DNA of 36,077 nucleotides, from the NCBI GenBank assembly GCA_003694805.1, contig RFJU01000057.1:1-36077 (forward strand). The letters are read 5' to 3'. The position numbers and the translations under genes were made by a program. Positions 5,368 through 25,046 of the stretch are shown one piece after another (the first letter of the stretch is position 1; each line of letters begins with the position of its first letter). This stretch comes from Candidatus Woesearchaeota archaeon. Its GTDB lineage: Archaea; Nanobdellota; Nanobdellia; Woesearchaeales; J110. The notes beneath the pieces are model-generated. The model had not been told where the DNA came from, made no database searches, and worked only from the letters and a program-made list of their open reading frames with translations.

Positions 5368-6291
5368 ATGAGCTTTGTCAAAAAATGCCCGGAATGCGGC
5401 GGCATCAACCTCTTCTGGAACAAAGAAAAAGGAGAAATCATCTGCCGAGACTGCGGCCTCGTCGTCGAAGACAAAATGGTCGACTTCACCCAAGAATGGA
5501 GAGAATTCGACTCTGAAGCTGCAGCAAAGAAACGAAGAACAGGAGCGCCCATCAGCTACACGCACTACGACCAAGGCCTCGGCACCGACGTAGGCAGAAA
5601 AGAAGACCTCTACCAACTCGGAGGCAAAACCAAGAACAAATTCTTCCGCCTCCGCAAATGGCAGCAGCGCATTAGCACGGCCATTGAACGAAACCTCAAA
5701 CTCGCCCTCTCGGAACTAAAACGCGTTTCGAGCTACCTCAAACTACCCGGCTCGGTAGAGGAAGAAGCATCCCGCATCTACACCCTCGCAGTCCAAAAAG
5801 GACTCGTCCGCGGCAGAAGCATGGAGTCAGTCGTCGCCGGCGCGCTCTACGCCGCCTGCAGACGCCACGACGTCCCAAGAACCCTTGACGAACTCAGCGA
5901 AGCGTCAGGCATAGAGAAAAAAGAAATAGGAAGAACGTACCGGTTCATAACACGAGAACTCGGCATTAAAATCCTTCCAAGCAACCCTGCAGACTACATC
6001 GCCCGCTTTGCCAGCGCCCTGAAACTCACCGCCGAGACACAGAGCAGAAGCATTGAAATCATAGAAGAGGCGCAAGATGTCGAACTCACCTCAGGACGAG
6101 GACCCACCGGCATCGCCGCGGCGGCGCTCTACGTAGCCGCACTTATCAACGGCGAAAAAAGAACTCAGCGCGAAGTGGCCGACGTGGCCGGCGTAACGGA
6201 AGTAACCATCCGCAACCGCTACAAAGAACTCCTCTCGCGCCTTGAATTAGAAAAAGAAATAAAAAAAGTCAAGAAGAAAAAAGCAATCTGA
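5368..6291 (+). CDS. tfb: Transcription initiation factor B (TFB/TFIIB)
   Basis: This encodes 307 residues, the usual TFB length. The N-terminal zinc ribbon has Cys7, Cys10, Cys26 and Cys29 (CPECGG...CRDCG). A B-reader/linker follows (~40-65, WREFDSE and KKRRTGAP), then two cyclin-fold repeats (~105-195 and ~200-295), the second ending in a helix-turn-helix region (TEVTIRNRYKELL). It recruits RNA polymerase to TBP-bound promoters and reads the BRE, which fits the CGAAAAG-TATA promoters in this window. AAGGAGG at 5348-5354 lies 13 nt before the ATG, a rather long spacing. No other start codon is available in frame between the TGA at 5185 and this ATG. The leader is rich in A and C and poor in T. 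Confidence 0.97.
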   Translation: MSFVKKCPECGGINLFWNKEKGEIICRDCGLVVEDKMVDFTQEWREFDSEAAAKKRRTGAPISYTHYDQGLGTDVGRKEDLYQLGGKTKNKFFRLRKWQQRISTAIERNLKLALSELKRVSSYLKLPGSVEEEASRIYTLAVQKGLVRGRSMESVVAGALYAACRRHDVPRTLDELSEASGIEKKEIGRTYRFITRELGIKILPSNPADYIARFASALKLTAETQSRSIEIIEEAQDVELTSGRGPTGIAAAALYVAALINGEKRTQREVADVAGVTEVTIRNRYKELLSRLELEKEIKKVKKKKAI

Positions 6292-6412: not shown

Positions 6413-7564
6413 TCACTCCTTCAAGCCAAAAACCCCCAAAACATCCTCCACCGTCGCCGAGCCCTTCGCATAAGCCCGCATCACCTCCCGCACTGCACCA
6501 ACCCTCACGGCCAAACCTTTCTCTTGTAACACGGGAAGCACGCCCTTGCAACAAAGGTACTGGCAGAACTGCGTCACATTTCTTCTCCTCACAGATTTTC
6601 TAGCACGCTCAAAATCAATCAGAACAGGAACATTTCCACGAACCAAGATGTGCTTGTACGGGTTCGTCATCTCGCCCTTCTCCCAACCAGCATCATCAAG
6701 GATGGAAAGCTGACGGAACACAAGGCGCAAAACCGGAACAAGCTCCTTGGCCGTGTGCGTCAACAAGAAGGCACCAATACGAACGCCATCAATCCACTCC
6801 AACGCCAACTCATCAACCACCTTGTTTTCCAGCCAAGGAGGACCGCCGACACCCAGAAGAGAAGGACCAATCCCCAGCGCATTCACCTCCTCCAAGACAC
6901 GAGCCTCATGCAAAAGGTGCCCACGAAAGCGAGGGGTTCTTGCCCGCTTCACCGCCACACGCCTGCCCTGACGTGTAGCACGAAACACCACACTGCGCTT
7001 CCCCCAATGCAACGCATCAGGGGCATCATGACGAAGCACATATAACAAAACCTCTTCGAAATCAAACGTGACCGCGTCTATGCACTGAAACGCGAAAGCC
7101 TCATGCCGAAAAACAGCTTCCAGTTTTTTCGGTCTGCTCCGAGAACTCGCAACGAGCAAGATACTGCCTTGCGGTCGAAGAAATGCCTTCGCCTCGCGAA
7201 CGAACCGCGCACTCCACTCCCACCCCTCAACGCCCCCATCCAAAGCAAGATCTTCATACCCGCGCTCGAGGGGGAGGTAAGGCGGATTGCAAAGGATGCA
7301 GTCAAACTGGCCCTTCACCCTCGAGAAAAGATCCGACTGCACAACGGAAACGTTCTGGAGCGAATGAGCCACGCGTTCTTGTAGCGCAGCAACCGCCTCG
7401 GGGTTCACGTCAACAGCGACGACCTCCTTGGCGAACTTTGCAGCCTCAACAGCCAAGACGCCCGAGCCCGTCCCCATATCCAGCACGCGACCCTTCGCAT
7501 AGGAGGGAATATGCCTGCGCAAGAGAAAAGAGTCCTCCCTTGGCTCATACACTCCCGATGACAT
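6413..7564 (-). CDS. HemK-type methyltransferase fused to a RIO/Bud32-like kinase domain
   Basis: This encodes 383 residues. Residues 1-~180 form a class I SAM methyltransferase: GVYEPREDSFLL at the start, DMGTGSGVLA for SAM binding, and the catalytic NPPYLPLE motif of the HemK/Mtq2 family, which methylates the Gln of the release factor GGQ motif. Residues ~185-383 look like the archaeal COG2112-type kinase family: AVKRAR supplies the ATP-binding Lys, KGEMTNPYKHI replaces the usual HGD-type catalytic loop, and LIDFERA stands where DFG would be. The kinase may be active in its own atypical way. ATG 7564 was chosen over TTG 7570; AGGGGG precedes it by about 7 nt. It lies 57 nt after the 7622 gene, probably in one unit. 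Confidence 0.85.
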   Translation of the reverse strand: MSSGVYEPREDSFLLRRHIPSYAKGRVLDMGTGSGVLAVEAAKFAKEVVAVDVNPEAVAALQERVAHSLQNVSVVQSDLFSRVKGQFDCILCNPPYLPLERGYEDLALDGGVEGWEWSARFVREAKAFLRPQGSILLVASSRSRPKKLEAVFRHEAFAFQCIDAVTFDFEEVLLYVLRHDAPDALHWGKRSVVFRATRQGRRVAVKRARTPRFRGHLLHEARVLEEVNALGIGPSLLGVGGPPWLENKVVDELALEWIDGVRIGAFLLTHTAKELVPVLRLVFRQLSILDDAGWEKGEMTNPYKHILVRGNVPVLIDFERARKSVRRRNVTQFCQYLCCKGVLPVLQEKGLAVRVGAVREVMRAYAKGSATVEDVLGVFGLKE

Positions 7565-7621: not shown

Positions 7622-8104
7622 TTACTCTGCCTTTCGCGGAAACATCTTATCAGCAAGAGATAAAAACTCCTTAATCCTGTTGAGAATGGCCGCAAGAAAA
7701 TACTTCTCAATATGCTCCTCAAAAATCTGCAAGAGCGGCGCGTTCTCTTTCACTCTGTACGTTGAACGAACCTTCTCTACAAGAAACAAATCGCGCAACC
7801 TCAACAACTGCCGCCGAATGTTAGACGGAGCGATTCCCAACAAAGGAAGCTTTGCCTTCTTCCGATACTCAATAACACGCTTCTCAATCTGCGCCGACGT
7901 TAACTCCTCTTTCGCGTCGAGCATCACATGCAGGACATCAACCATCACGTCTCTCGAATCACCCGGCTGAAGAAGTCCTAAACTCAGACAAATCTTTCTC
8001 ACCAACTCACGCTGCCTAGCAAGCCCTGGCTTTTCATACTTTCTCAGCGTAATTTCAGCAAGAGGAGTATCAACAGCAACTTTTAAGCCACCCTGTTTTG
8101 CCAA
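7622..8104 (-). CDS. Winged-helix-like conserved protein
   Basis: This encodes about 160 residues. It starts with a segment including PLAEITLRKYEKP, then a helical region (RELVRKICLSLGLLQPGDSRD), a probable winged-helix domain at about 65-125 (LTSAQIEKRV... SNIRRQLLRLRDLFLVEK), and a C-terminal helix. This looks like a small regulator or nucleic-acid-binding protein seen in DPANN genomes, but I cannot name a family. There is no ATG at the front. TTG at 8104 sits 7 nt after a GGGGGAT ribosome binding site and is preferred; TTG at 8119 is the alternative. It precedes the methyltransferase-kinase gene. Confidence 0.75.
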   Translation of the reverse strand: MAKQGGLKVAVDTPLAEITLRKYEKPGLARQRELVRKICLSLGLLQPGDSRDVMVDVLHVMLDAKEELTSAQIEKRVIEYRKKAKLPLLGIAPSNIRRQLLRLRDLFLVEKVRSTYRVKENAPLLQIFEEHIEKYFLAAILNRIKEFLSLADKMFPRKAE

Positions 8105-8164
8105 TAAACATCCCCCCAACTAAAACTTTTGAAAAACAATTAAATCCTATGAGTGAACAACCAC

Positions 8165-19876: not shown

Positions 19877-20004
19877 CGCCGTGGCCCGGATTCGAACCGG
19901 GGATCCCAAAAGGGACGAGATGCCTCAACAACAACGCAAAACACCCGCAAGGTGCTGCCTTGCCTTTTCCAGTCTCGCGCAATACCAGGCTATGCGACCA
20001 CGGC
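19877..20004 (-). tRNA. tRNA-Ser (anticodon GGA) with intron
   Basis: On the minus strand the acceptor stem is GCCGTGG/CCACGGC with discriminator G, as expected for Ser. The anticodon stem CGAGA pairs with TCTCG only if about 45 nt (19922-19966) are removed after anticodon loop bases CTGGAA, at the canonical archaeal 37/38 site. The loop then carries GGA. A class II variable arm (CCC-TTTT-GGG) and a T arm CCCGG-TTCGAAT-CCGGG follow. The intron has its own GCAAGG/CCTTGC hairpin. Its exact boundary is ambiguous by one A. The tuf-rpsJ-tRNA-Ser order is a known archaeal arrangement. Confidence 0.9.
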
Positions 20005-24219: not shown

Positions 24220-24861
24220 TCACCCTTGTCGGTACAAGAGCGTTTCATCAATACGGGTCCACTCGTGCAGCTCTTCCTTGGAAAACCACACGGCAATCTC
24301 CCTCTTCGCCTCTTCCACCGTTCCGGAAGCATGAATAAGATTCTGAATGGGACGCCTACTCGCGTCCGCGAGCTGGTACGTGTCAAAGCTGTAATCTCCC
24401 CGAATCGTCCCTGGAGGCGCGTCACCCGGGCTCGTCGCGCCAACCAGTTTGCGAATATGCGCAACAGCATTATGCCCCTGCAAGACAAGGGCGACAACGG
24501 GGCTCATGGAAAGAAACTGCATAAGCTGCTCACGAACTCGCAACCCAATCTCCCGCTCGCTCTCCTCAACCACCACACCTTTCTTCTTGTACGCCTCTTT
24601 TTGCTTCTCACCAACCATAACAAGCCACTCTTCATCAGCAGCGTAATGCTCTCCGGCAAGTTGCTCATTCGGGTACACCATTTTCATCGCAATAAGCTTT
24701 AACCCGCACCGTTCAAAACGAGAAATAATCTCTCCAACAAGCCCTCTTTGCACTGCGTCAGGCTTGAGCAAGACCAAACTCTGTTCTTGCAAAGAAGAAG
24801 ACAACGAGTCTTGTGCACTACCCCCGCGAGACGTTGCCTTTGCCTTGGCTGAGGAGCTCAT
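24220..24861 (-). CDS. ndk: Nucleoside diphosphate kinase
   Basis: This encodes 213 residues, longer than the usual ~150 because of a Ser-rich N-terminal tail (~27 residues) and an insertion around EEWLVMVGEKQKEAYKKKG. The core is clear: SLVLLKPDAVQRGLVGEII, ATSPGDAPPGTIRGDY, and NLIHASGTVEEAKREI with the phosphorylated His. In most NDKs the residue after IHAS is Asp; here it is Gly. ATG 24861 is preceded by GGAGG at a 7-nt spacing and overlaps the L24e stop as ATGA. It transfers gamma-phosphate between nucleotides. Confidence 0.95.
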   Translation of the reverse strand: MSSSAKAKATSRGGSAQDSLSSSLQEQSLVLLKPDAVQRGLVGEIISRFERCGLKLIAMKMVYPNEQLAGEHYAADEEWLVMVGEKQKEAYKKKGVVVEESEREIGLRVREQLMQFLSMSPVVALVLQGHNAVAHIRKLVGATSPGDAPPGTIRGDYSFDTYQLADASRRPIQNLIHASGTVEEAKREIAVWFSKEELHEWTRIDETLLYRQG

Positions 24862-25046
24862 TTGCTTGCCTCCTTCTCCTTCCTCGCCGCCTTTGTCCAA
24901 GCAACATTCCTCGGCTTTCTTCGCAGCTTCAAAAGGTTTTTTTCGCATTTCAAAGAGCAAAAATGCAAGAGCTTCCCATCGTTCTTGACAAAGAGCTTGC
25001 CAGTCCCGGCAGGGATCCGCACACCACAAAAGGAACAAAGCGCCAT
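24858..25046 (-). CDS. rpl24e: Ribosomal protein L24e
   Basis: This encodes 62 residues. The zinc finger has Cys4, Cys7, Cys30 and Cys34 (CSFCG...FCSLKCEKN), and NAWTK-type sequence is present as NVAWTKAARKE. ATG 25046 lies 9 nt after GGAGG; GTG 25052 overlaps the S28e stop and is the alternative. It is third in the L7Ae-S28e-L24e-NDK operon, a common archaeal order. Confidence 0.96.
   Translation of the reverse strand: MALCSFCGVRIPAGTGKLFVKNDGKLLHFCSLKCEKNLLKLRRKPRNVAWTKAARKEKEASK

Follow-up and report, generated by a model that had tools for sequence, protein, structure and literature searches.

A HemK2/Mtq2-type methyltransferase fused to a putative ArkI-type kinase in a Candidatus Woesearchaeota archaeon and its relatives

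The window, that is, the whole stretch of 36,077 nucleotides that was analysed, contains abundant translation and RNA genes. On its minus strand, one long ORF was found to join a methyltransferase domain to a kinase domain. This ORF, its parts and its two neighbours were characterized by the following features:

5368..6291, plus strand: TFIIB gene, convergent with the fused ORF; where relatives have retained Trm112, its gene is in several cases located just beyond TFIIB.
6413..7564, minus strand: fused ORF of 383 aa, with an ATG at 7564 and a stop codon ending at 6413; the same architecture was observed in 86 further genomes of the order.
6416..7021, minus strand: ArkI-type (COG2112) kinase domain, residues about 183-383, with the P-loop GKRS, the K and E equivalent to K51 and E65 of TkArkI, the catalytic loop KGEMTNPYKH, DFERA, NVTQ and the Y of the YKR motif, as assigned from profile and fold matches in the PDB and a residue table.
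7001..7033, minus strand: short junction YVLRHDAPDALHWG, about 12 residues from a conserved Y to the kinase G.
7034..7561, minus strand: HemK2/Mtq2-type SAM methyltransferase domain, residues 2-179, with the motifs VYEPREDSFLL, DMGTGSG and NPPYLP; TIGR00537 scored above its cut-off, and N6AMT1 and Mtq2 were among the PDB sequence and fold matches.
7622..8119, minus strand: upstream ORF of up to 165 aa, winged-helix-like by inspection; it is a conserved neighbour of the methyltransferase gene, including where the kinase lies elsewhere and in other orders of the class.

The upstream ORF gave no match in Pfam or NCBIfam. Elsewhere in the window, a 272-aa ORF on the minus strand (24220-25038) corresponds to a nucleoside diphosphate kinase whose Pfam match is split into two stretches, which suggests an internal insertion; this ORF also carries extra N-terminal sequence that may precede the true start.

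The frame of the fused ORF was uninterrupted, with zero internal stops, and two in-frame TTG codons (7570 and 7567) were present ahead of its ATG. Codon-position GC exhibited no break at the domain junction. In the AF2 model of the whole protein (pLDDT 87, pTM 0.58), both domains were confident and their mutual placement uncertain, and confidence fell to about 67 in the linker (residues 181-190). The initial annotation had described a HemK-type methyltransferase and a COG2112 kinase lying in one frame; this was borne out by the uninterrupted ORF and by matches to TIGR00537, TkArkI and 8yv4/8yv5. A one-base error in the contig, joining two overlapping genes, would be in line with the fragmented assembly, in which the fusion rests on a single contig, and with the closest relatives, which mostly carry separate and often overlapping genes (14 split versus 2 fused). 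Such an artefact is nevertheless highly improbable, given the continuity of frame and codon-position GC and the other genomes with the same architecture, single-contig assemblies among them. Even a one-base error in this contig would leave the architecture untouched. Because the fusion is shared by 86 other genomes of the order, neither chance nor a local frame error explains the methyltransferase-kinase architecture, which is confirmed as real.

The methyltransferase half matched the HemK2/MTQ2 model TIGR00537 with 123.1 bits (curated cut-off, 87 bits) over residues 7-176, numbered on the 385-aa stop-to-stop frame. Both the SAM-binding motif DMGTGSG and the NPPYLP motif were present, and the N, the second P and the Y of NPPY were invariant among 18 fused proteins. 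A search of the genome found no second HemK2-like gene, and the aRF1 encoded in the same genome (G000:C68:6750-7817) keeps its GGQ as AGGQSAPRF, so that GGQ methylation is the natural assignment. On these sequence grounds, the methyltransferase half most likely methylates the GGQ glutamine of aRF1, using SAM. NPPY-type methyltransferases include tRNA and rRNA modifiers, and the partner domain belongs to a tRNA-kinase family, which would both suit a methyltransferase half that has switched to a tRNA substrate, turning the protein into a dual tRNA-modifying enzyme. We consider this switch quite improbable, since the HemK2/MTQ2 model scored above its cut-off and the GGQ of aRF1 is conserved in a genome with no other HemK2 found.

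In the aRF1 proteins of two relatives (loci L191, G005:C52:7600-10500, and L192, G018:C7:900-3800), about 500 residues resembling an intein are inserted immediately behind the GGQ glutamine, which would be the target of HemK2. The insertion starts with CLAKD or CLVKG, ends with VHN and contains LAGLIDADG-like motifs. In genome G000 and most relatives in the order, the TIGR03676 match of aRF1 has a gap of about 40 model positions in the C-terminal domain (about 318-358).

The kinase half gave zero matches in Pfam, a search which alone misses this part of the protein; some members of the kinase family matched Pkinase or RIO1 weakly. By sequence, the C-terminal 200 aa matched TkArkI (COG2112) and the PDB entries 8yv4 and 8yv5. 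When a profile built on an alignment of 34 relatives was searched against the PDB (hmmsearch), 8yv4 was recovered at 1.1e-26 and TkArkI (7vnx) at 2.6e-17, and 8yv4/8yv5 and TkArkI were the only hits below 1e-8. The AF2 model of the kinase half (pLDDT 93, pTM 0.90) had TkArkI as its best fold match in the PDB (E 1e-9, TM 0.77), followed by PRPK/Bud32 (7e-7). Identity with Bud32 was rejected: Bud32 is encoded by a separate gene (G000:C50; TIGR03724 above cut-off), and the locus of the fusion (C57) gave no match. No second ArkI-family kinase was found in the genome search.

COG2112 corresponds to the ArkI family (AQ578 family), whose characterised member is an RNA kinase that phosphorylates tRNA U47 at the 2'-OH, apparently in tRNAs with five-base variable loops, and that lacks the peptide-binding subdomain VIII (PMC9095486). 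Replacement by alanine of K32, G33, K51, E65, H130, Q132, K137, D149, N160, T162 or K201 lowered or abolished the activity of TkArkI, and that of Y200 affected it mildly (PMC9095486). Among these positions, G33, K51, E65, K137, D149, N160, T162 and Y200 are kept in the kinase half of the fusion, as is DFE. Across 75 mapped kinase domains, G33, E65, D149 and the E of DFE were invariant, and K51, K137, N160, T162 and Y200 nearly so. The fusion has K-x-E in place of the HGQ catalytic loop of TkArkI; H130 is replaced by K and Q132 by E in all 75 domains and in 8yv4. K32 is W in this copy (kept in 53 of the 75 domains), and K201 is an A followed by K (kept in 64). The motifs first noted as the kinase's own, KGEM...PYKH and DFERA, are thus present, the K-x-E being general among the mapped kinases and DFE conserved. 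The domains were also strongly basic, with a median net charge of +18 (+12 in this copy), which fits RNA binding, and in the tree this kinase was placed on a long branch.

From these comparisons, we place the kinase half in the ArkI superfamily, set apart by its K-x-E catalytic loop; our best guess is that it is a putative tRNA kinase, its activity and substrate being ones that we infer because K-x-E replaces HGQ and because this copy lacks K32 and K201. The initial annotation, in linking methylation of a translation factor with phosphorylation, implied a different idea: the C-terminal domain would phosphorylate protein, either aRF1 or some other translation protein, and would couple the two modifications on one protein or on related ones. 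This would agree with the fold, which is that of the protein kinase superfamily, with the weak Pkinase/RIO1 matches of some members, and with the closest PDB sequences, which have the K-x-E loop as well and are deposited as a putative serine/threonine protein kinase. We nevertheless regard it as rather unlikely, considering that the characterised RNA kinase of COG2112 is devoid of subdomain VIII (PMC9095486), that the N.T and Y(K) positions specific to ArkI have been retained, and that the domain is so basic. What stands of the proposed link between methylation and phosphorylation is that the fusion probably unites two activities that modify the translation system; a generic kinase, or one acting on proteins, has become the less likely partner, COG2112 being the family of ArkI tRNA 2'-kinases and the comparisons pointing to TkArkI. 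Annotating the protein as a methyltransferase alone would miss half of it, and annotating it as a protein kinase would mislead.

Trm112 is the activator of Mtq2 in eukaryotes. In the genome studied here (96% complete), Trm112 was not found, either by Pfam or with a tailored profile, the Pfam Trm112 hit corresponding to the zinc ribbon of TFIIB. Trm112 was present in about a fifth of the order's genomes (not found in about 80%), both fused and non-fused, and in several of the relatives examined its gene was located a few kilobases from the fusion locus. Mtq2 orthologues occur throughout archaea, some groups of which have no Trm112 (reviewed in PMC5372719); Trm112 therefore does not define the HemK2/Mtq2 family in archaea. 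The replacement of Trm112 was unsupported as a cause of the fusion, since Trm112 co-occurs with fused and split genes. A related possibility is that the kinase domain chiefly assists the methyltransferase, by binding RNA or by stabilising the enzyme, and might for instance stand in for Trm112. That Trm112 was not found in this genome and is scarce in the order would agree with such a role, as would the departure of this kinase from TkArkI at four important positions. It remains unlikely in our view, as the 75 domains hardly vary at the catalytic K, E, K and D, Trm112 is distributed over fused and non-fused genomes alike, and archaea without Trm112 also have Mtq2 orthologues (PMC5372719).

If the kinase half is a tRNA kinase, possible substrates are available: U47 was present in 8 of the 10 intronless five-base V-loops of the genome's tRNAs, although U47 is common in V-loops and this count proves little about the substrate. 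KptA, the proposed eraser of Up47, was found in none of 40 relatives' genomes, so that any 2'-phosphate mark would not be reversed via KptA. Two tRNA genes were identified in the window, both on the minus strand (1114-1185 and 19877-20004). At about 128 bases, the second is long enough to suggest an intron, and several other tRNAs of the genome are similar in this respect.

To describe the distribution of the fusion, we surveyed 194 genomes of the phylum, comprising 125 of the order and 69 of other orders of the same class. The fusion was observed in 87 of the 125 genomes of the order (70%) versus 0 out of 69 in the other orders; the former number was counted by hand from the listed matches and takes in a few proteins in which a stop lies close to where the match ends, as well as three partial matches. 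Almost all of the named relatives with the fusion are Candidatus Woesearchaeota. The survey did not refute the fusion by showing the two domains to be always separate in related genomes, most relatives within the order being fused. In a genome labelled Aenigmarchaeota (G247; loci L185 and L064), which was left out of the count, a kinase ORF, headed by the final part of a methyltransferase, starts at one contig end, and another contig end truncates a methyltransferase gene. These pieces are probably the same fusion broken by assembly, and the contig may be mis-binned.

In the other orders of the class, the kinase gene is located elsewhere and the methyltransferase gene is preceded by a conserved ORF of about 150-180 aa, identical in kind to the upstream ORF 7622..8119 of the window. 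Among the non-fused members of the order that were examined, the kinase gene lies directly after the methyltransferase gene in most, commonly with a 4-base ATGA overlap, an arrangement typical of translational coupling; in a few, the two genes are separated by gaps of 300 to 2,600 bases. Since the genes are unlinked in other orders and mostly adjacent in the non-fused members of this one, the neighbourhood was probably gained in the order, with fusion occurring afterwards.

A tree of the concatenated halves placed the protein in a clade of 16 (96/98 support) in which 14 pairs are split and 2 are fused, its neighbour being a split pair with a 7-base overlap; the other large group of the tree was mostly fused. 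A single origin of the fusion was rejected (one clade for all fused rows, p-AU 0.013, on a tree with some long branches), so fusion or fission appears to have recurred, with more than one event. In most fused proteins, 24 residues separate the conserved methyltransferase end from the P-loop glycine of the kinase; this protein has about 12, which is in line with a separate fusion. Recurrent fusion, together with conserved adjacency, makes a functional link between the two activities plausible. It is also quite possible, albeit somewhat less probable than the explanation favoured below, that both enzymes act as assigned above and that their fusion has no joint function, overlapping operon genes toggling between one and two chains through small indels to which selection is indifferent. 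The ATGA and 7-base overlaps of non-fused relatives and the repeated fusion or fission on the tree are what such toggling would produce; however, the fused state prevails among the order's sampled genomes, the 24-residue linker length is highly conserved in most fused members, and the linkage was gained in the order and is absent from the sister orders examined.

The explanation that we favour, by a modest degree, is that 6413-7564 encodes a bifunctional translation enzyme, i.e. an aRF1 GGQ-glutamine methyltransferase joined to a tRNA V-loop 2'-kinase. The N-terminal half, as the sole HemK2/Mtq2 orthologue found in the genome, would carry out the SAM-dependent methylation of the aRF1 GGQ glutamine, and the C-terminal half, as the sole ArkI-family kinase found, would phosphorylate the 2'-OH of a tRNA nucleotide at the expense of ATP, by analogy U47 of five-base variable loops. 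The two genes would have been unlinked at first, then neighbours in the order, often translationally coupled, and then repeatedly fused and split. Being fused would, at the least, hold the two enzymes at equal amounts, and may bring them together at the translation machinery. A bolder version, in which an order-wide enzyme physically couples aRF1 GGQ methylation with tRNA V-loop 2'-phosphorylation on substrates sharing the tRNA shape, in presumably non-thermophilic archaea, and in which the basic kinase replaces the missing Trm112 as activator, seems to us improbable.

Should the kinase half have ArkI-like activity, many Woesearchaeota would phosphorylate their tRNA internally at the 2' position, a modification so far described mainly as a trait of thermophiles, and one polypeptide would combine the modification of a release factor with that of tRNA. 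Recurrent fusion is a concrete lead towards a link between enzymes of termination and of tRNA maintenance, and it offers a single-chain protein small enough for assay. No earlier description of a methyltransferase-ArkI fusion was found in the literature searched, a scope that most subscription journals fall outside.

Among known systems, HemK2/Mtq2/N6AMT1 (TIGR00537; PDB 3q87, 6h1d and 8cnc) resembles the N-terminal half over the full domain, sharing the N-terminal YEP.ED motif, the SAM motif, NPPY and a conserved aRF1 GGQ partner, but the present protein bears a C-terminal kinase and its genome has no Trm112 partner that was found. TkArkI (PDB 7vnx) resembles the C-terminal half in profile, fold and the kept residues G33, K51, E65, K137, D149, DFE, N160, T162 and Y200, and differs in having HGQ rather than K-x-E, in having K32 and K201, and in lacking a fused methyltransferase; the relatives of the fusion, in turn, lack KptA. 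The entries 8yv4/8yv5, deposited as a putative serine/threonine protein kinase, are the closest solved sequences to the kinase half and share the K-E-E-M and DFER motifs, but are stand-alone chains of 174-175 residues. Bud32/PRPK of KEOPS forms the second-best fold group, whereas the genome has its own separate Bud32 gene. Finally, WbdD, a bifunctional kinase-methyltransferase whose substrate is a polysaccharide (PDB 4azs and 4azt), was recovered when the whole model was used for the fold search and likewise unites both enzyme types in a single chain; its superposition was loose (rmsd about 9), with no evidence that the two fusions share an origin.
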